In this document: positions 8,784 through 52,382 of the stretch, piece after piece | How positions within the stretch are numbered: the stretch's first letter is position 1 | Layout of the letters: each line of letters begins with the position of its first letter | From: Bradyrhizobium sp. WBOS07 | Lineage (GTDB): Bacteria > Pseudomonadota > Alphaproteobacteria > Rhizobiales > Xanthobacteraceae | DNA length: 64,000 nucleotides | Reading direction: 5' to 3' | NCBI RefSeq assembly: GCF_024585165.1 | Contig: NZ_CP029008.1 | Location: forward strand, 248,001 to 312,000 | The notes under the pieces: generated by a model | The model's input: the letters and a program-made list of their open reading frames with translations, nothing else | Database searches by the model: none | What the model was told of the DNA's origin: nothing | Program-made: the position numbers and the translations under genes

Positions 8784-9953
8784 ATGAGCGATGAACACCA
8801 CACTGAAGATTACGCCGACATCCGCGACGCCGTCGCCAAGCTCTGCGCGCAGTTTCCCGGCGAATATTGGCGCAAGCTCGATCGCGAGATGGCCTACCCG
8901 AAGGCCTTCGTCGATGCGTTGACTGCGGCCGGCTATCTCTCGGTGCTGATCCCCGAGGAATATGGCGGCGCGGGCCTGAAGCTGTCGGCCGCGGCGGCGA
9001 TCCTCGAAGAGATCCAGCGTGCGGGCTGCAATGGCGGCGGTTGCCATGCCCAGATGTACACGATGGGTACCGTGCTGCGCCACGGCAACGCCGAGCAGAA
9101 GGCCAAGTACCTGCCGAAGATCGCGAGCGGCGAGTTGCGCCTGCAAGCCTTTGGCGTCACCGAGCCGACCAGCGGCACCGACACCTCCTCGCTGAAGACC
9201 TTCGCACGCAAGGACGGCAACGACAGCTACATCGTCAACGGCCAGAAGATCTGGACCAGCCGCGCCGAGCATTCCGACCTGATGGTGCTGCTGGCGCGCA
9301 CCACGCCGAAGGAGCAGGCCAAGAAGCGCACCGACGGCCTGTCGGTGTTCATCGTCGACATGCGCGAGGCCAAGAACAACGGCCTGGAGATCCGCCCGAT
9401 CCGCACCATGATGAACCACGCCACCACCGAAGTGTTCTTCACCGACATGAAGGTGCCGGCTGAGAACCTGATCGGCGAGGAAGGCAAGGGCTTTCGCTAC
9501 ATCCTCTCCGGCATGAACGCCGAGCGCATCCTGATCGCAGCCGAATGCGTCGGCGACGCCAAATGGTTCATCGCCAAGGCGACCAACTACGCCAAGGAGC
9601 GCAGCGTGTTCGGACGGCCGATCGGCCAGAACCAGGGAATCCAGTTTCCGATCGCCAAGGCCTACGCCTCGATGCGCGCGGCCGAGCTGATGGTGAAGGA
9701 AGCCACGCGGAAATATGAGGCTGGCCTGGACTGCGGCGCCGAGGCCAACATGGCCAAGATGCTGGCGGCGGACGCGTCCTGGGAAGCGGCGAATGCCTGC
9801 ATCCAGACCCATGGCGGCTTCGGCTTTGCCGAGGAATACGACGTCGAGCGCAAATTCCGCGAGACGCGGCTCTACCAGGTGGCGCCGATCTCGACCAACC
9901 TCGTGCTGTCCTTTGTCGCCGAGCACGTGCTCGGCATGCCGCGCTCGTATTGA
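8784..9953 (+). CDS. Acyl-CoA dehydrogenase family protein
   Basis: A flavoprotein of 389 residues with the acyl-CoA dehydrogenase fold: N-terminal helical domain (LIPEEYGGAGLK), middle beta domain (FGVTEPTSGTDTSSLKT, IVNGQKIWTSRAEHSD) and C-terminal helical domain (ERSVFGRPIGQNQGIQFPIAK, QTHGGFGFAEEYDVERKFRE). The usual catalytic-base block GTSE near the end is replaced by APISTN, so the base must sit elsewhere or the chemistry differs. It is the first gene of a three-gene operon with a CaiB-type CoA-transferase nine bases downstream. A homologous gene accompanies itaconate-degradation genes in Pseudomonas; the acyl-CoA substrate here is not known. Confidence 0.9.
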   Translation: MSDEHHTEDYADIRDAVAKLCAQFPGEYWRKLDREMAYPKAFVDALTAAGYLSVLIPEEYGGAGLKLSAAAAILEEIQRAGCNGGGCHAQMYTMGTVLRHGNAEQKAKYLPKIASGELRLQAFGVTEPTSGTDTSSLKTFARKDGNDSYIVNGQKIWTSRAEHSDLMVLLARTTPKEQAKKRTDGLSVFIVDMREAKNNGLEIRPIRTMMNHATTEVFFTDMKVPAENLIGEEGKGFRYILSGMNAERILIAAECVGDAKWFIAKATNYAKERSVFGRPIGQNQGIQFPIAKAYASMRAAELMVKEATRKYEAGLDCGAEANMAKMLAADASWEAANACIQTHGGFGFAEEYDVERKFRETRLYQVAPISTNLVLSFVAEHVLGMPRSY

Positions 9954-9962
9954 GGTCCGGCC

Positions 9963-11066
9963 ATGGGAGCACTTGACGGGATCAGGGTGATTGCGGTCGA
10001 GCAGGCGGTGGCGGCGCCGTTCTGCTCCTCGCGCCTGGCCGATGCCGGCGCCGAGGTGATTAAGATCGAGCGGCCCGAGGGCGATTTCGCCCGCGGCTAT
10101 GACGCGGCGGCCAAGGGCCAGAGCAGCTACTTCGTCTGGCTCAACCGCGGCAAGCAATCGGCGGTGGTCGATCTCACGACGACGGAAGGCCGCGCCGAGC
10201 TGGAGAAGCTGATCGCCGGCGCCGACGTGCTGATCCAGAACCTCAAGCCGGGCTCGATGGACAAGCTCGGCTTCTCCCGCGAGCGGCTGTTGAAGGACTA
10301 TCCGAAGCTGATCTCCTGCACCATCACCGGCTATGGCGACGAGGGTCCCTACGCGCATCGCAAGGCGTATGACCTGTTGATCCAGGCCGAGAGCGGGCTC
10401 GCCTCGATCACCGGCAATCCCGATGGCGCCTCGCGCGTCGGCATGTCGATCGTCGACGTCGCCACCGGCGCCACCGCGCATGCGGCGATCCTCGAGGCGC
10501 TGATCGCGCGCGGGCGCACCGGCAAGGGCGCCGATATTCGCATCTCCATGTTCGACGTGATGGCGGACTGGTGCACCGTGCCGCTGCTGAACTCCGAAGC
10601 GGGCAATCCGCCGAAGCGGATGGGCCTGCGCCATCCCTCGATCGCGCCCTACGGCGTGTTCACCTCGAAGGACGGCAAGGACATCCTGATCTCGATCCAG
10701 AGCGAGCGCGAGTGGAAGACGCTCTGCGCCAAGGTGCTGGATCAGCCCGATTTGCCGGCCGATCCCCGCGTCGCCAATATGGTCGAGCGCGTGCGCAACC
10801 GCGACTTCACCGACACGATTGTGGCGGAGGCTTTCGGCAGGATGACGCGTGACGAGTTGCTGAAGCGGCTGTCGGATGCCGACATTGCATTCGCCGAGGT
10901 CAACACCATGGCCGACCTCGCCAAGCATCCGCATCTGCGCCGCATCGAGGTGGACACGCCGCAGGGACGTGTCAGCTATCCCGCGCCGGCGCCGATCGTC
11001 GTCGGCGAGACGCGCAGCTATGGCGCCGTGCCCGCGATCGGCGAAAATCCGCAGTCCAAGAAGTAA
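9963..11066 (+). CDS. CaiB/BaiF (class III) CoA-transferase
   Basis: A 367-residue family III CoA-transferase that would move CoA between carboxylic acids through an enzyme-bound aspartyl anhydride; Asp165 in MSIVDVATGATAHAA is the probable catalytic residue. The N-terminal nucleotide-fold block VEQAVAAPFCSSRLADAGAEVIKIERPEGDFAR and the later YGDEGPYAHRKAYDLLIQA region (parts quoted) are family signatures. It is tightly packed between an acyl-CoA dehydrogenase and a MaoC-like hydratase. With these partners it resembles the itaconate or mesaconate CoA-transferases, for which succinyl-CoA is the usual donor; substrate assignment is inference. Confidence 0.88.
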   Translation: MGALDGIRVIAVEQAVAAPFCSSRLADAGAEVIKIERPEGDFARGYDAAAKGQSSYFVWLNRGKQSAVVDLTTTEGRAELEKLIAGADVLIQNLKPGSMDKLGFSRERLLKDYPKLISCTITGYGDEGPYAHRKAYDLLIQAESGLASITGNPDGASRVGMSIVDVATGATAHAAILEALIARGRTGKGADIRISMFDVMADWCTVPLLNSEAGNPPKRMGLRHPSIAPYGVFTSKDGKDILISIQSEREWKTLCAKVLDQPDLPADPRVANMVERVRNRDFTDTIVAEAFGRMTRDELLKRLSDADIAFAEVNTMADLAKHPHLRRIEVDTPQGRVSYPAPAPIVVGETRSYGAVPAIGENPQSKK

Positions 11067-12099: not shown

Positions 12100-13722
12100 A
12101 TGGCCAAGAACGGCAAGACCGGCAGCAAGTCCGTCACCGTCAAGCAGGCGACGCTCGACCTCTTGCGCGGCTTCGGCATCGACCGGGTGTTCGGCAATCC
12201 CGGCTCGACCGAGCTGCCGTTCCTGTCCGACTGGCCCGACGACATCGACTACGTGCTGGCGCTGCAGGAGGCTTCCGCCGTCGGCATGGCCGACGGCTAC
12301 GCGCAGGCGACGCGGAATGCCGGCTTCGTCAATCTGCATTCGGCGGCCGGCGTCGGCAACGCGCTCGGCAACATCTATACTGCGCATCGCAACCAGACCC
12401 CGCTGGTGATCACTGCGGGTCAGCAGGCGCGCTCGATCCTGCCCTTGCAGGCGTTCCTCTACGCCGAACGCGCCTCGGAATTCCCGCGGCCTTACGTCAA
12501 ATACAGCGTCGAGCCGGCGCGGCCGGAGGACGTGCCGGCCGCGATCGCGCGGGCCTATTACACCGCGATGCAGCCGCCGTGCGGGCCGACCTTCGTGTCG
12601 ATCCCGATCGATGATTGGGCTCACGCCACCCCCCCCGTGGAAGCGCGCAAGGTCAGCCGCGAGATCGGCCCCGAGCCTGACGCGATGAAGGCGCTGGTTG
12701 CCGCGCTCGCCAGCGCAAAGCACCCTGCCCTCGTGGTCGGCCCCGGCGTCGACCGCGCCGGCGCGGTGGACCTCATGGTACGCGTGGCCGAGAAGGCCAA
12801 GGCCAGCGTCTGGGTCAGCCCGTTCTCGGCGCGCTGCTCCTTCCCCGAGCGCCACCCGCAATTCGCCGGCTTCCTGCACGCTTCGCCCGCGCAGCTGTCC
12901 GACGCGCTGCGCGCGCACGACCTCGTCGTCGTGATCGGCGCACCGGTGTTCACCTTCCATGTCGAGGGCCATGCCGCGATCTTCGACGGCGGCGCGACGA
13001 TCTTCCAGATCACGGACGATCCTGACGCGGCGGCGGTGACTCCGGTGGGCACCAGCATCATCGCCACGATGAAGCCGGCTCTCAGCCTGCTGCTTGACCT
13101 GCTCCCCGAGAGCAAGCGCACCACACCCAAGGGCCGCACGCTGCCGCCGGCGCCGCAGGCCGGCGATCCGCTGCCGGTCGAGTTCCTGCTGCATTCGCTG
13201 TCGCAGGCGATGCCGGACGGCGCCTCGCTCGTCGAGGAGGTGCCCTCGCACCGGCCGGCCATGCAGAAGTTTCTGCCCATGCCCGGCCAGGACAGTTTCT
13301 ACACCATGGCGAGCGGCGGCCTCGGCTATTCGCTGCCCGCCGCCGTCGGCATGGCGCTCGGCAAGCCGAAGCAGCGCACGGTGTGCCTGATCGGCGACGG
13401 CTCGGCGATGTATTCGATCCAGGCGCTATGGACCGCCGCGCAGCGCAACCTGCCGCTCACCATCGTCGTCATCAACAATTCCGGCTACGGCGCGATGCGC
13501 TCGTTCAGCCAGGTGATGCAGGTGCGGGGCGTGCCCGGGCTGGAGCTGCCGGGGATCGATTTCGTCCGGCTCGCCGAAGGCATGGGCTGCCATGCGGTGC
13601 GGGTGAGCAAGGCGACGGAGCTGGGCGAAGCGCTGAAGCACGGCATGGCGTTCGAGGGCACGAGCCTCGTCGAGGTCGTGGTGGATTCAGCGGTGCCGGT
13701 TCTGTACGGGCAGAAGCATTGA
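12100..13722 (+). CDS. mdlC: Benzoylformate decarboxylase-like ThDP enzyme
   Basis: A thiamine diphosphate-dependent decarboxylase of 540 residues, closest to benzoylformate decarboxylase, which turns benzoylformate into benzaldehyde and CO2 in mandelate breakdown. The signature VFGNPGSTELPFL contains the active-site Ser, NLHSAAGVGNALG the first His, and VFTFHVEG aligns with the second His region; the ThDP/Mg motif GDGSAMYSIQALWTAAQRN is intact. The ATG at 12100 is preceded by AAGGGG; nine residues upstream are open but unconvincing. No mandelate dehydrogenase or benzaldehyde dehydrogenase lies beside it. It follows the acyl-CoA operon on the same strand but is separated from it by a 167-bp repeat-bearing gap. 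Confidence 0.85.
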   Translation: MAKNGKTGSKSVTVKQATLDLLRGFGIDRVFGNPGSTELPFLSDWPDDIDYVLALQEASAVGMADGYAQATRNAGFVNLHSAAGVGNALGNIYTAHRNQTPLVITAGQQARSILPLQAFLYAERASEFPRPYVKYSVEPARPEDVPAAIARAYYTAMQPPCGPTFVSIPIDDWAHATPPVEARKVSREIGPEPDAMKALVAALASAKHPALVVGPGVDRAGAVDLMVRVAEKAKASVWVSPFSARCSFPERHPQFAGFLHASPAQLSDALRAHDLVVVIGAPVFTFHVEGHAAIFDGGATIFQITDDPDAAAVTPVGTSIIATMKPALSLLLDLLPESKRTTPKGRTLPPAPQAGDPLPVEFLLHSLSQAMPDGASLVEEVPSHRPAMQKFLPMPGQDSFYTMASGGLGYSLPAAVGMALGKPKQRTVCLIGDGSAMYSIQALWTAAQRNLPLTIVVINNSGYGAMRSFSQVMQVRGVPGLELPGIDFVRLAEGMGCHAVRVSKATELGEALKHGMAFEGTSLVEVVVDSAVPVLYGQKH

Positions 13723-46517: not shown

Positions 46518-47384
46518 ATGACCGATCCCAGCCCCCTGTCGTCACTGTCATCCGCCCTCGCGGACGTGGTGGCGCGCACCGCACCCTCGATCGTCTCCGT
46601 GCGCTCGCATCGCTTTCGCTCGACCGGCTTCGTCTGGAAGAGCGGCCTGATCGTCACCGCGGACGAGGCGCTGGCCGACGAGGGCGAGGTCGAGATCGGC
46701 CTGCCGGACGGCCGCACGAGCCCAGCCACGATCGCCGGCCGCGACCACACCACCGACATCGCGCTGCTGCGCGCCGACATCGCTCCGAACCCGGCCAAGC
46801 TCGCGGCAATTGTCCCGCCGCTGGGCGCATTGGCGATCGTGGTCGCCACCAACCGCGACACGCCGAGCGCGGCGCTCGGAATGGTGTCGGCCTCCGGCAA
46901 GAGCTGGCGCTCTCTGCGCGGCGGCGAGATCGATGCGCGGATCGAGCTCGACGTCCGCCTGCGCGACAGCCAGCAGGGCGGCCTTGCGCTCGATGCCTCG
47001 GGACAAGCCTTCGGCATGGCGGTGCTCGGCCCGCGGCGCGTGCTGGTGATCCCGACGGCGACGATCGAGCGGGTCGCCTCCCAGCTGGAGGCGCGCGGCC
47101 GCATCGCGCGCGGCTATCTCGGCCTCGGACTGCAGCCGGTGCGGCTCGACGACGGCGTCGGCGCGATGGTGATGCATGTCGACAAGGCCGGACCGTCGGC
47201 CGCGGCCGGCATCCGTCAGGGCGACGTGATCGTCGCGGTCAACGGCCAGAAGCTGTCCGGCGTGCGCGCGCTGTCGCGGACGCTTGGACCTTCGAGCGTC
47301 GGCACGGTGATCGATCTCGCGGCGCGCCGCGGCGGCGAGCCGGCCGGCTTCAAGGTCACGGTCGGCGAGAGGCCGGAGACGTGA
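46518..47384 (+). CDS. S1C protease-like PDZ protein lacking catalytic His and Ser
   Basis: A 288-residue HtrA-like protein that appears dead as a protease. Aligned with the active relative near 42.5 kb, the catalytic His of TNNHVV becomes Glu50 (TADEAL) and the Ser of GNSGGP becomes Gln153 (SQQGGL), while Asp80 (TTDIALLR) is kept. The barrel and a C-terminal PDZ domain (GAMVMHVDKAGPSAAAGIRQ; GDVIVAVNGQKLSGVRAL) remain well formed. It has no signal peptide, so it should be cytoplasmic. Its stop overlaps the start of a LuxR-type gene by four bases, so both are made together; a sensor or scaffold role is inferred. Confidence 0.85.
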   Translation: MTDPSPLSSLSSALADVVARTAPSIVSVRSHRFRSTGFVWKSGLIVTADEALADEGEVEIGLPDGRTSPATIAGRDHTTDIALLRADIAPNPAKLAAIVPPLGALAIVVATNRDTPSAALGMVSASGKSWRSLRGGEIDARIELDVRLRDSQQGGLALDASGQAFGMAVLGPRRVLVIPTATIERVASQLEARGRIARGYLGLGLQPVRLDDGVGAMVMHVDKAGPSAAAGIRQGDVIVAVNGQKLSGVRALSRTLGPSSVGTVIDLAARRGGEPAGFKVTVGERPET

Positions 47385-47752
47385 GTGAGGACAGCTCCCC
47401 GGAGATCGTGCTGTCCCTGGAGATCGACGATCCCGCGCTCGCCGACCGCCTGGCGAAGCTGCTCGGCAACGTCCCGGGGCTGCGCCTTGCCGCGCCCGGC
47501 GAAGCTGCCGCGGCGACGATCGTCGCGCGCGATCCGCGCATCATGCCTGATGACATCGCACTGACGCAGCGCGAGCTCGACGTGCTGGCGCTGATGGCGG
47601 AGGGTGCCTCCAACAAGATGATCGCGCGCCGGCTCGGCATCTCCGTGCACACCGTCAAGTTCCATGTCGGCTCGCTGCTCGACAAGCTCGATGCCACCGG
47701 CCGCACCGATGCGGTGGCTCACGCCGCCCGTCGCGGCGTGATCGAGCTGTAG
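47381..47752 (+). CDS. Small LuxR-type HTH regulator
   Basis: A 123-residue protein starting at GTG 47381, overlapping the pseudo-protease stop as GTGA, so it is translationally coupled. Residues 60-120 form a LuxR/NarL helix-turn-helix: LTQRELDVLALMAEGASNKM then IARRLGISVHTVKFHVGSLL. The first 50 residues look like a remnant or fragment of a receiver-like fold (IVLSLEIDDPALADRLAKLL) without phosphorylatable Asp, so it is not a standard response regulator. It may be controlled by the coupled PDZ protein; a longer frame upstream is only a shadow of that gene. Confidence 0.85.
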   Translation: MSEDSSPEIVLSLEIDDPALADRLAKLLGNVPGLRLAAPGEAAAATIVARDPRIMPDDIALTQRELDVLALMAEGASNKMIARRLGISVHTVKFHVGSLLDKLDATGRTDAVAHAARRGVIEL

Positions 47753-47773: not shown

Positions 47774-48616
47774 TCACGGCGCCTTCGCGGCCTGAATGCG
47801 CGCTTTCAGGGCTGCGGCGCCGACCGCGCCGGGGATCACGCTGTCACCGACGACATAGCCGGGCGTTCCGTTGATGCCGAGCGCTGAGGCGAGGCGCATG
47901 TTCTGCTGCAAGGCCTCGCTCACCTCGGCGCTGGCCGCATTCTTCTCGATCTCCCCGGCGTTGAAGCCGAGATCGGCAGCGACCGCAAGCGCCGCGGCAC
48001 GATCGACCCGGCCCTGCGTCGCCATCAGGCGGCGATGAAACTCGAGCGTTTCGGCGGCGCTGGGATGATGCATCTGCAGCGCGATCGCGACCTTGGCGGC
48101 TTCGACGGAGTCGGGGCCCAGGATCGGGAGCCCCTTGAGCACGATGCGTACGTTCGGCTCGTCGGCGATCAGCGCCAGCGTGTCGCCCAGGGCCTTGCGA
48201 CAATAGCCGCAGTTGAAGTCGTAGAACTCGACCAAAGTGCGGGCGCCTTCGGCGGCGCCGAGGGTCGTCTGCAGCGGCGCGGTGTACAGCGCCTTGGCGT
48301 TGTCACTGATCACCTGCCTGATGTTGCCCGCCGCAGGCGTCGGGGCGGTCTGCGCGGTGGCGTTGCGCTTGGCAATGAGGGCCACGAGCGCATTGCGCAC
48401 CGCCTCGGGGTGATCGGCCAGGTATTTTTCGATTGCCGGGCCGAGGGCTTCCGGGTGCGCGGCGAGATATTGCTGGATGGCCTCGTCGACGTCCCTACGT
48501 TGCATCTCTGCGTACGCCGTGCTCGGCACCGCAATTGCGGCAGCGACGAATATGCCCAGCGCGGCTCCGTGGAGCCGGTGTAACGCAAGCCTTGGTCTGT
48601 CGATCATTGTTGGCAT
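47774..48616 (-). CDS. DsbA/ScsC-like periplasmic thiol:disulfide oxidoreductase
   Basis: A 280-residue exported thioredoxin-fold protein. A signal peptide ends near residue 37. Residues 47-73 hold a duplicated helical motif, IQQYLAAHPE then IEKYLADHPE, as in the N-terminal oligomerisation stalk of ScsC and Com1-type proteins. The active site FYDFNCGYCRKAL has CxxC at 136-139 and the cis-Pro loop is NGTPGYVVGD. ATG 48616 has GGAGG nine bases upstream; longer frames are spurious. Its start is 34 bases after an 845-residue cysteine-rich protein on the same strand, making it the last gene of that operon. ScsC relatives are isomerases, suiting disulfide-dense clients. Confidence 0.9.
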   Translation of the reverse strand: MPTMIDRPRLALHRLHGAALGIFVAAAIAVPSTAYAEMQRRDVDEAIQQYLAAHPEALGPAIEKYLADHPEAVRNALVALIAKRNATAQTAPTPAAGNIRQVISDNAKALYTAPLQTTLGAAEGARTLVEFYDFNCGYCRKALGDTLALIADEPNVRIVLKGLPILGPDSVEAAKVAIALQMHHPSAAETLEFHRRLMATQGRVDRAAALAVAADLGFNAGEIEKNAASAEVSEALQQNMRLASALGINGTPGYVVGDSVIPGAVGAAALKARIQAAKAP

Positions 48617-48650
48617 TGCCGAATTCCTCCACTTACCTCTCAAGAGCATC

Positions 48651-51188
48651 CTAGCGCTCCCGTTGCCGCACAGGCGGCACAACGCGGCCGGGCTGAAGCG
48701 GCGCAACCCGGCTAGGCTGAGGCGGCGCAACTCGGCGAGGTCCGGCCGGCAAGCAGCGTTTCCCAAACGGCCCTGGGACGGTTCCGGCCGGACAGCTGAT
48801 CGGACGGCTCGTAGAAGGCTCACGTTCTCCAGGCGCCTTCGGCTTCGACGGACGCGGCACGGGAACGGGCGAAGGCTTGACCGGCACAGGCTTCGGCGTG
48901 CGCGCCACGCAGGTGCCCTTGTCGTCACGCGTTTCGCCTGCCGCGCAGGGTTCCTGCGGCGAAAACTTCTTGCCGCTCTGTGCGACACACTGCGAGCGAT
49001 CGTTCGGATTGACCGGGGCAGGACAGCACTCGCCGCTCGACGTCAGGTTTCCGGCCGCGCAGCACTTTCCCGCCGCGGTTGGCACATAGCCGGCGGCACA
49101 ACAAAGCGAGATCTTCGGAATCTTGAACTTCGGTTGGCATTGTGTTCCGTCGGCGCTCGGAGTCTGGCCGACCGGACAGCACACACCTTTCGAGGTCGCC
49201 TGGCTCTTCAGGCAACATTTGCCCGCGATCTTCACGTAACCCGGCGAACAGCAGTCCAGACATATCCCGCCCGGAATCTTGGGAATGAATTGCTGACACT
49301 TGCCGTTGACCAGAGCACCCGCGCAGCAAAGCTGGGCCCCGCCCGAGCCGGTATAGATGCGATCGTTCTCGCAGCACTCGTGGTTGGGACCGATCGCCGT
49401 TTGCGTCGTTCCGCACATCGGCTTGCCGATGTCGGTCGAGGGATTGCCGCAAGCGCCGCCGGGCCGAAGATCGACCGCTGAACAGCACTTGCCGTTGACC
49501 AGAGTCTCGGACTTTGCGCAGTCCGAGGCACAGGCGCCGTTGCTCCACACTTGATTGATCGGGCATACGGGCTTGCCCCCGGGGCCGCACACATGGGTCT
49601 GACAGGCCCGGAAGCTCGGCGGCGGCGGCGGCAGCGGCACGCCGACGGGGCGCAAGCCCGGCAGAAGTTGCGCCGGCTGTTCGGCGCAGGTGCGCAGGAT
49701 GGCGATGTCTCCCAGATGTCCCCGTGCGGACAGATCCGGCGGCGCGTCGGCATAGTCGATGAAATAGCTGAGCCGCGGCGGCGCGTCGTCACGGCGGATG
49801 CGCCAGGCCGGATTCCCCTGCAGCCCGTCGACTGCAAGCATATCGCTCTGACCGATCTGTGTGACGAGCTTGGGATCGGTGGCGTGCCGCAACTGCTCTC
49901 CGGTGGTCCAGACGAAGCCGCCGCAGGAGCGCGGATTGATGTTGCCGTGCTGGTCGTAGTCGTAACCGATGGCGACGCCGCCATTGTCGTTGCGGAACGT
50001 CTCGGGGAAGCCCACCGCATATTCGTCCGGCACGGCCTGCCAGATCGGCTGCTTTGCCTCCGTGGCGCCGATCACCGTATAGCGCAGCACGCGGCCGATC
50101 GACGGCACCGACAGCGCTTCGAAATCCTGGGCGCCGGTCGGCGCCGGCCGCTCGGCGAGATACATCCGCCCTGCGTCATCGAAGGTGATGCGCGATATCT
50201 CGGTGGCGCCGGCCGCGAGCGGCGCCGCCACCTCGATCCTGATGTCCGGGCCGAACGAACCATCGGCGTTGAGGCCGACCGACCAGATCCGCGATCCCTC
50301 GGCGACCGCGTAGTAGAGACGATGATCGCGCACCGCGAGGCCGAACACCCGCCGTCCCGGCTCTGCGTAGCCCCAGGTCTGGGGCCGCGCACTGTCGAAT
50401 TGCGGGCTGGTCAGATTGATGCCGGGCCCGGCAGCTGCCGGCAAGGGCGCAATCCCGACGGCGGCGGTGCCGGTTGTGCCGTGATCGTAGACGCCGAGAT
50501 CAGCGCCATTCATGCCGAAACGATGGATGAGACCCGTCTCGCGGTCGGCGACGAGCAGCGACTTCGTAGCGGGATCGTAGGCCAGTCCGCCGAGCGCTGC
50601 GCCCGAGTTCGCCCTTCCGGCGGTGACGACATTCGCAAACAGCTTCACCTCGCCGGTAAGGCCGTTGATCTTCCAGATCGACCCGGGCCCGCCTCCGGGT
50701 CCCCACTGCGCCGGCATGAAAGCCGCACCGTTTGTCCCGAACCTGACGTGCTGCGGCTTGCCATCGCTTCCGGGCGCAACGATCGACAGCCCGTAGGCCG
50801 AGGTTGCCGCGGCATAGATGTTGGCGGGCGATTGGTCGTCCAAGGCGACGCCGAATACCTGCCCGATCCATTTCGCGCTCACTGTGAAGGGCTTTGGCGC
50901 TCCGACGAGTTGCGCCTCCGGTGGACCGCCCATACGGCTGAGATCGACGACGCGCAGCGAGGGTCCGTCGGGATTGATGAACGAGCGCGCATCGGCGTCC
51001 TGACCGGGCTCGATCTCGAAGGGCCGGAGCCCGCCGGAGAAGCCAGTGACCACGGCCTGGCCGGGCGCATAAATGCCGCGCGGCGCCTGGGCCGAGGCCG
51101 CGCTGCTCATCGTTAGAACCAGGCCCGCTGCGATGGCGATGCAGCGCATCGCTGAGACGACGAACGATTTGTGTGAGCGAGGCTTCAT
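48651..51188 (-). CDS. Exported beta-propeller-like protein with Cys-Cys-rich C-terminus
   Basis: An 845-residue secreted protein, family not recognised. A signal peptide ends at about residue 34 (TMSSAASAQA). Residues 35-490 are a repetitive beta-rich domain with short repeats such as GGLAYDPATKSLLVADRETG and ITFDDAGRMYLAERP, which look like propeller blades. Residues 500-812 contain about 34 cysteines, nine of them in Cys-Cys pairs, in modules of the form KCC-x-n-CCPVGQTPSADGTQC. The tail is Pro/Arg-rich. It starts 12 bases after the stop of another cysteine-rich exported protein and is followed by a DsbA-like gene. Surface attachment or matrix function is plausible but unproven. Confidence 0.75.
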   Translation of the reverse strand: MKPRSHKSFVVSAMRCIAIAAGLVLTMSSAASAQAPRGIYAPGQAVVTGFSGGLRPFEIEPGQDADARSFINPDGPSLRVVDLSRMGGPPEAQLVGAPKPFTVSAKWIGQVFGVALDDQSPANIYAAATSAYGLSIVAPGSDGKPQHVRFGTNGAAFMPAQWGPGGGPGSIWKINGLTGEVKLFANVVTAGRANSGAALGGLAYDPATKSLLVADRETGLIHRFGMNGADLGVYDHGTTGTAAVGIAPLPAAAGPGINLTSPQFDSARPQTWGYAEPGRRVFGLAVRDHRLYYAVAEGSRIWSVGLNADGSFGPDIRIEVAAPLAAGATEISRITFDDAGRMYLAERPAPTGAQDFEALSVPSIGRVLRYTVIGATEAKQPIWQAVPDEYAVGFPETFRNDNGGVAIGYDYDQHGNINPRSCGGFVWTTGEQLRHATDPKLVTQIGQSDMLAVDGLQGNPAWRIRRDDAPPRLSYFIDYADAPPDLSARGHLGDIAILRTCAEQPAQLLPGLRPVGVPLPPPPPSFRACQTHVCGPGGKPVCPINQVWSNGACASDCAKSETLVNGKCCSAVDLRPGGACGNPSTDIGKPMCGTTQTAIGPNHECCENDRIYTGSGGAQLCCAGALVNGKCQQFIPKIPGGICLDCCSPGYVKIAGKCCLKSQATSKGVCCPVGQTPSADGTQCQPKFKIPKISLCCAAGYVPTAAGKCCAAGNLTSSGECCPAPVNPNDRSQCVAQSGKKFSPQEPCAAGETRDDKGTCVARTPKPVPVKPSPVPVPRPSKPKAPGEREPSTSRPISCPAGTVPGPFGKRCLPAGPRRVAPPQPSRVAPLQPGRVVPPVRQRER

Positions 51189-51200
51189 GATTGCAGCCCC

Positions 51201-52382
51201 TCACTTCACGATTGGCTTCGGCACGCAGGTGCCGCTGTTCGAATCGGGTATCGTCCCTGGCGGGCAGCATTGCCCGCAGGTCGTCATCTGCGCCGGGTTG
51301 CAGCAGCTGCCGTCGAACGCCATGCCCTGGGTCGGATCCGCGCACGGCTTCACGCATTCGCCGCTCTGGCCGATGCGTATCTGTCCCGCAGGACATGCCG
51401 GCGGCGGGCACATGCCGAACGGCGCGAAGCCGAGATTTGCCGGCTGATTCGTGTTGTCGCAGAGGCACTGCGACAGGCCACTCGGCAGGATCGGGCCGGG
51501 ATGCGTCTGGCGATCCGGATTATCGGCTTCATACGGACAATCGCAGGCGAACAGCCAGCGATGCACGTCGGTCCCTGGATTTGGCACCTCATGCCAAGCC
51601 GGGACCATCGGCTTGGGACAGAAGCAGGATTGGACAGGGTCGCAGCCGGTATTCTCCTGCGTCGGCGGCAGCCAGATGGCCAGTGTTCCGTCCGGCGTGT
51701 CCGCTTTCGCGACCGTCGGGATGTTGTCGCCGTATCCGCACTTCTGCCAGTTCGGATTGCAATTGGAGATGGAGCTGTACGGGATGCAGGCCGGATCCTT
51801 CATCTGGTCGAAGTGACCCATGGGTTGGCAATGCTTGACGTCGACCGACCCGCAATAAGCCTTCTGCGGCGGCGGCCGCGTGCAGTTGCACCCAATCCCC
51901 AACCCGCCGCACAGCAAATCCTGAGCGCATTCGCCGAGGTCGAAACCAATGGAATTCGTGCTCTGCTCGGTTTCGCAGGAGCATTTCGCGATCTTTTGAG
52001 CCGAGCTGTTCTCCTTCAGCTTCTTGTAGATGTCGGCCGGAATGGAGCTGCCGAATATCGCCTGCAGCTTGTCGGCGATCACGTCGCCGGAGCCCGTCGC
52101 CTGTGCGCAAAACTGATCGACGAGGTCTTGTCCCTTGCCCGTGTCCGAGCCCTGGATCGCCACGCCGGCGAGGGCCAGATCCAGCGCGATCGCGATGTCG
52201 CAGTTTGTCTCGCTGTCAGAACAGAGCGACTCGCAATCATATGTTGCCTTGAGCGTGCCGTAGAAAGACTTGGCGAGATCCTCGAGGCTGCACCCCGCGC
52301 GCGCCGGTGACGCGAGCAGCAGCATCGCGGCGACGACCACCGCACTATACCTTCGCCAGCCGGCTGGAAATTCGATGCGCAT
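51201..52382 (-). CDS. Exported cysteine-rich protein, unknown family
   Basis: A 393-residue protein with a signal peptide (YSAVVVAAMLLLASPARA) and about 33 cysteines spread over the whole mature chain. The first 130 residues are helical with a CxxxC-type pattern (YDCESLCSDSETNC); the middle has CSCE, GCNCTRPPP, CFCPKP and CDCP motifs; the end repeats the CCPPGTIPDSNSGTC module that its downstream neighbour also carries (CCPVGQTPSADGTQC). ATG 52382 has a GGGGGGA ribosome site. It is the first gene of a three-gene operon ending in a DsbA/ScsC-like oxidoreductase. No enzyme motif is visible; a structural, adhesive or toxin-like role are all open. Confidence 0.75.
   Translation of the reverse strand: MRIEFPAGWRRYSAVVVAAMLLLASPARAGCSLEDLAKSFYGTLKATYDCESLCSDSETNCDIAIALDLALAGVAIQGSDTGKGQDLVDQFCAQATGSGDVIADKLQAIFGSSIPADIYKKLKENSSAQKIAKCSCETEQSTNSIGFDLGECAQDLLCGGLGIGCNCTRPPPQKAYCGSVDVKHCQPMGHFDQMKDPACIPYSSISNCNPNWQKCGYGDNIPTVAKADTPDGTLAIWLPPTQENTGCDPVQSCFCPKPMVPAWHEVPNPGTDVHRWLFACDCPYEADNPDRQTHPGPILPSGLSQCLCDNTNQPANLGFAPFGMCPPPACPAGQIRIGQSGECVKPCADPTQGMAFDGSCCNPAQMTTCGQCCPPGTIPDSNSGTCVPKPIVK

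Follow-up and report, generated by a model that had tools for sequence, protein, structure and literature searches.

The window, a 64,000-nucleotide stretch of a 6.73-Mb single-contig genome (G000:C1:248001-312000), carries three genes arranged head to tail on the minus strand in the order A, B, C. Gene A (51201..52382) is separated from gene B (48651..51188) by 12 bases (51201/51188), and B from gene C (47774..48616) by 34 bases (48651/48616) when C is taken to start at the ATG at 48616, the start that also defines its 280-residue length. The closely spaced minus-strand trio of the original prediction is thus present. A 404-residue open reading frame with its end at 47774 reads C as longer than it is. 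A search for promoter-like sites, with 0.5 expected by chance, found none, so the case for co-transcription rests on spacing. The trio is neighboured by Tex, a trypsin/PDZ protease gene and a regulator-like frame; the stretch at 46518-47752 holds the protease gene and then a frame that, judged by eye, ends in a LuxR-type helix-turn-helix. Our literature search found no publication on this operon.

Gene A encodes a 393-residue protein with a signal peptide that, as read from the sequence, ends in ...SPARA|GC. It models as a helical N-terminal domain (about residues 33-160) followed by a Cys-rich C-terminal part related to that of B, and the mature chain holds 33 cysteines, the number originally reported. 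Across 69 homologues, 31 cysteine columns are filled in at least half of the sequences, 29 of these in at least 90%. Neither Pfam nor NCBIfam has a match to the protein at E up to 1, and its nearest named relatives come from a Bradyrhizobiaceae MAG (92%) and Bradyrhizobium nitroreducens (89%). The residues before Cys31 depart from the lipobox consensus: A itself has Arg at -3, and the alignment of its homologues has Asp at -1 in P0047 and P0060 and extra residues in P0066 and P0067.

Gene B encodes 845 residues: a propeller (about 40-501) leads into a Cys-rich rod, and the end is rich in Pro and Arg. The propeller-like domain proposed earlier is borne out by residues 40-501, which model as a YWTD/NHL-like propeller; the tail is modelled with modest confidence. 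The whole sequence contains 36 cysteines, 35 once one in the signal peptide is removed, so the earlier figure of 34 applies to part of the protein only; all nine reported Cys-Cys pairs can be counted in it. In an alignment of 55 homologues, 27 columns hold cysteine in at least 90% of the sequences; like the conserved columns of A, this speaks against chance as the source of the cysteine density. No Pfam family matches B at E up to 1, and NCBIfam returns a single 13-bit match, far under its cut-off. Pfam repeat models do not pick out the propeller either, matching few of the 55 homologues (NHL in 3, SBBP in 2, DUF6923 in 4; best E 0.0015). B differs from YWTD/LDL-receptor-type and NHL/SMP-30 propellers in sequence, at 10-16% identity among the matches listed, and in its tail modules, which match no EGF model above cut-off. 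Pfam models of EGF, TIL and EB cysteine modules give nothing above cut-off in the tails of either A or B, with sub-threshold Ephrin_rec_like, EB and TIL matches in relatives, and the PADLOC anti-phage models match none of A, B or C at E up to 0.01. Homology of A or B to a family with an unrelated role did not turn up in the libraries searched, and the original prediction holds in this respect. The end of B (48654-48722) is rich in Pro and has Arg at its close, a feature of several homologue tails too.

More remote propeller proteins show other architectures. At L125, L126 and L128, such proteins or their neighbours carry DUF11 repeats, with DUF5979 also in L125 and L126; at L126 this is one 2034-residue frame. 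Proteins with DUF11/DUF5979 repeats are of surface type, and the propeller may perhaps underlie a larger group of surface proteins that includes these loci, although B of the window itself lacks such repeats. A further remote subfamily of five proteins (L202, L204, L205, L206 and L207; 31-34% identity) has exactly seven cysteines each, an odd number, with neither a Cys-rich tail nor an A gene.

Of 60 relatives' genomes, 3 contain A, and across the order a profile of A matches 5 of 397 genomes (own genome counted in both); these counts are lower bounds, because up to four candidates per genome were scored in the order-wide search and genome G436 of the family was later found to hold an A-like gene that the A sequence matches at only 25%. 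The B profile, with up to two candidates scored per genome, matches 49 of 391 family genomes at E 1e-30, and protein searches gave 68 homologues of A and 633 of B, 120 of the latter listed. Co-occurrence of the three genes in other genomes, run as a refutation test, left the original prediction unrefuted: A and B stay adjacent even where identity in A falls to about 25%, and 11 of the 16 complete A-B loci have C after B (its frame carries a stop at one of these, L061). Its absence at the other five (L049, L050, L051, L053 and L055) makes C a frequent but not obligate partner, and other Dsb enzymes can presumably serve there.

Near relatives have the operon placed after Tex and ahead of the protease gene. 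Among 15 genomes of the genus without the operon at this place, nine have the regulator and the protease within 10 kb downstream of Tex; at L224 a gap of 20 bases separates the Tex match from the regulator match, and G006, one of the 15, has a distant A-B pair elsewhere. The operon thus has the look of an accessory element inserted into conserved surroundings.

The cysteine counts of A and B show a largely consistent parity once an alignment has been used to trim the signal peptides. Of 69 A homologues, 66 have an odd number in the mature chain (P0002, P0030 and the 281-residue P0058 are even). All 21 A copies at loci are odd as well, 18 by a script count and three (L050, L051 and L054) as read from printed sequences. 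Mature B is odd in all 55 aligned homologues, with totals from 35 to 51, and in 118 of the 120 listed of 633 homologues; the even pair are short records, 659 and 529 residues long. An odd count leaves one cysteine over in each mature chain.

This parity separates B genes by their neighbours. We examined 45 B frames at loci and kept 35 complete ones, dropping five cut by an end and five fragments of loci already counted. All 16 complete B genes with A upstream are odd despite changing cysteine totals (35 to 69), whereas all 19 complete stand-alone ones are even (8 to 80). An upstream frame was counted as A only if it had at least 29 cysteines; frames of 18-19 cysteines near the stand-alone genes at L058, L125, L186 and L062 were taken for shadow frames, and the gene at L128, followed after 3 bases by a 26-cysteine frame, may itself be broken. 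Seven further stand-alone genes are also even (six rows of this added set were dropped as cut or fragments, and L194 overlaps a 21-cysteine frame), giving 26 of 26 at 38-53% identity. Including the five remote seven-cysteine proteins, the contrast is 16 of 16 odd among A-linked genes versus 5 of 31 among stand-alone ones, which takes the Fisher value, with relatedness ignored throughout, from 6.0e-12 to 1.4e-8. In the B tree the A-linked genes form one clade (100/99), so the odd state and the A partner represent one evolutionary event. Single-protein relatives beside C are even in all three cases, with 60 and 58 cysteines by script and 48 in L189, where one of the 49 printed cysteines lies upstream of the likely start.

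The variable cysteine columns of B co-occur as pairs, nine of them at phi 1.00, and columns 54-61 and 212-226 of A co-occur at 0.95. Such paired gains and losses indicate that the cysteines are in disulfides; lineage contributes to the signal too, since B columns 534-643, unlikely partners, co-occur at phi 0.93. Cys-rich proteins can also bind metals, and this general capacity speaks for a metal-binding role of the cysteines in place of disulfides, as does copper(I) binding by the Caulobacter enzyme CcScsC, described in a passage of PMC8900818. We regard such a role as very improbable, given the signal peptides, the paired gains and losses, the adjoining gene for a thiol-disulfide enzyme and the fact that no match to A or B is a metal-binding family.

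The simplest use of the two leftover cysteines would be a single disulfide between A and B. Parity by itself does not identify the partner: both chains are odd, so A-A and B-B homodimers or free thiols would fit as well, with C still acting as an isomerase, and the five remote propeller proteins are odd without any A. In the closer group, however, an odd B accompanies an adjoining A, and the evenness of all 26 stand-alone relatives and all three single-protein systems argues against homodimers or free thiols, which we consider unlikely. Two loci, L001 (3482-5982) and L047 (6487-8966), have a tandem A pair with one B, the second A being about 50% identical to A of the window; every A copy there is odd, as is the single B. 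Pairing of A with A would suit this arrangement, and B may alternatively choose between A variants.

For the A-B disulfide, the most likely site would be a module that the two chains share. The original prediction noted a common cysteine module, and the profiles of A and B do align over the last ~75 residues of A (E 3.8e-7, 33% identity). In A, a seven-cysteine hairpin module spans residues 347-393 (51204..51344, minus strand; Cys347, 360, 361, 369, 372, 373 and 386), and its Cys369 is an extra cysteine that is invariant (69/69). The second seven-cysteine hairpin block of B covers residues ~695-734 (48987..49106, minus strand; Cys696, 697, 709, 710, 721, 722 and 734). A-linked B genes have a leading CC in this block; among the 19 printed stand-alone relatives, nine fit the pattern of the block but have just one copy, which a single Cys leads, and ten match none. 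From a hairpin reading of the spacing, our best guesses for the unpaired residues are Cys369 in A and, in the second CC-led block, Cys696 in B.

Gene C encodes an exported protein with an ScsC-type thioredoxin fold and two cysteines in its 280-residue form. The DSBA-like thioredoxin domain PF01323 matches at E 5.7e-24 (85.4 bits, cut-off 25.6), and alignment to solved ScsC-like chains places the CGYC active-site motif and a Thr before the conserved Pro (NGTPGYVV). Both the CGYC and the duplicated stalk claimed at the outset are in the sequence, the latter as two YLxxHPE units in the N-terminal stalk. C matches chain 7rgv at E 3.4e-30 and 4xvw (PmScsC) at E 5.4e-23, the match covering part of the stalk only. 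The passages available from PMC8900818 and PMC5524982 describe CcScsC as trimeric through N-terminal helices that bend at His22-Pro23; these residues are the HP of YLLEHPE in 7rgv, which contains the linker given for CcScsC in a passage of PMC8900818. C thus resembles the trimeric ScsC isomerases of Caulobacter (CcScsC) and Proteus (PmScsC) in its DSBA-like domain, CXXC, Thr-Pro and N-terminal helix with an HP bend, and it most likely acts as a trimeric isomerase, as the match of its stalk and catalytic part to solved chains suggests. It differs from them in having two stalk units, where 7rgv has one in the aligned stretch, and in being a putative isomerase that sits with Cys-rich exported proteins and outside an scs operon. 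Its neighbours, A, B, Tex, the protease and the regulator-like frame, are not those of scsABCD, which speaks against an scs operon and not against ScsC-like action.

The same genome encodes a second ScsC (G000:C1:2835796), 41% identical to C, and has 9 matches to PF01323 and 3 to DsbD_TM. ScsC-like matches occur in all 22 genomes probed, which were chosen for A or B. Those encoded beside B have two YLxxHPE units (L061 is cut) and the others examined have one; the exceptions away from B are L086 of G602 and the cut L093. In the C tree, 18 single-stalk rows split off (95/97), leaving on the other side 11 operon rows together with L086 and L093, the latter at a contig start, so that the label 'beside B' requires two changes and not one. 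At L118 (6734-8949) and L122 (6380-8588), a single-stalk ScsC gene directly adjoins a gene whose sequence has an M48-like HExxH motif.

The double stalk is tied to Cys-dense genes. A search with C alone at E 1e-54 matched 83 of 391 family genomes, and the link was tested on 106 distinct C homologues: 14 with two units, 89 with one and three without a unit by pattern (L178; L061, a broken C beside a 69-cysteine frame; and L120, cut by a contig start). For frames read stop to stop on the same strand, one with at least 24 cysteines lies within 3.5 kb at 13 of the 14 double-stalk loci and at none of the 89 single-stalk loci, where the largest has 19 (Fisher 1.3e-15, relatedness ignored); flanks of at least 1 kb on both sides are available at 81 of the 89. 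The fourteenth double-stalk gene (L119, the same gene as L086) adjoins a truncated A-domain frame, and its contig ends 495 bases away. Two of the 14 loci (L005 and L001) came from searches with A as query, and eight further ones adjoin B genes that earlier searches with A or B had turned up. Of the 13, three (L116, L117 and L152/L189) are in genomes without a B match at 1e-30 and have different Cys-dense proteins with signal-like starts; the partner at L116 has an A-like head (27% over 137 residues), and L152, added after the idea had formed, fits the link. At L117, two small Cys-containing frames with signal-like starts (9884-10231 and 12732-13196) flank the 58-cysteine protein beside the double-stalk C.

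C therefore belongs to a double-stalk class tied to Cys-dense genes, unlike the single-stalk ScsC of each genome. The link, which extends to three partners other than B, argues against the view of C as just one more ScsC, with a possible role in copper stress, whose place downstream is accidental. Such an undedicated C would account for its absence at 5 of 16 A-B loci, and other members of the 9 PF01323 matches could fold A and B, but we find this explanation improbable. The original prediction of an exported structure with a dedicated folding catalyst is supported by the class link and weakened by those five loci, which leave the catalyst a frequent partner and not a required one.

An enzyme devoted to one exported structure has a counterpart in Salmonella, where BcfH, an operon-dedicated Dsb-like enzyme, is encoded in the bcf fimbrial operon; there too an extra thioredoxin-fold enzyme is co-encoded with an exported structure. 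The libraries searched gave no fimbrial or other named family for A and B, which also differ from the bcf system in carrying far more cysteines. BcfH is described in a passage of PMC8900818 as a trimer with both oxidase and isomerase activity.

We consider it fairly probable that A and B are exported and disulfide-bonded, that they are joined by one A-B disulfide and that C is their isomerase. Signal peptides read from the sequence would take both proteins to the periplasm, where they would become fully disulfide-bonded, A with a helical head and B with a propeller head, each followed by small Cys-hairpin modules. C would be a periplasmic, trimeric ScsC-type isomerase whose extra helix-bend unit lengthens the trimerization arm, and its co-encoding would allow mispairings among the 68 cysteines to be reshuffled to the correct ones. 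The final place of the A-B complex would probably be at the outer membrane or outside it, where it would serve in binding or adhesion. More tentatively, and falling somewhat short of probable in our view, the product may be an exported LDL-receptor-like complex, in which propeller and helical chains saturated with disulfides are held by one inter-chain bond and a longer-stalked trimeric isomerase has evolved as the dedicated assembly enzyme.

Which proteins trimeric bacterial disulfide isomerases act on in nature is still being asked, and a passage on PmScsC names the identification of specific substrates as a key question (PMC5524982). In this operon, the enzyme and its substrates seem to be encoded together. 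The 68 cysteines make a demanding test case for an isomerase, and the double stalk is a variant, provided by nature, in which the effect of stalk length on isomerase action can be studied; taken as a rule, the stalk link predicts a Cys-dense neighbour almost always. The parity contrast yields a sharp and cheap prediction, one A-B disulfide, and if the LDL-receptor-like reading is true, cysteine parity across genomes would predict a covalent partner ahead of experiment.
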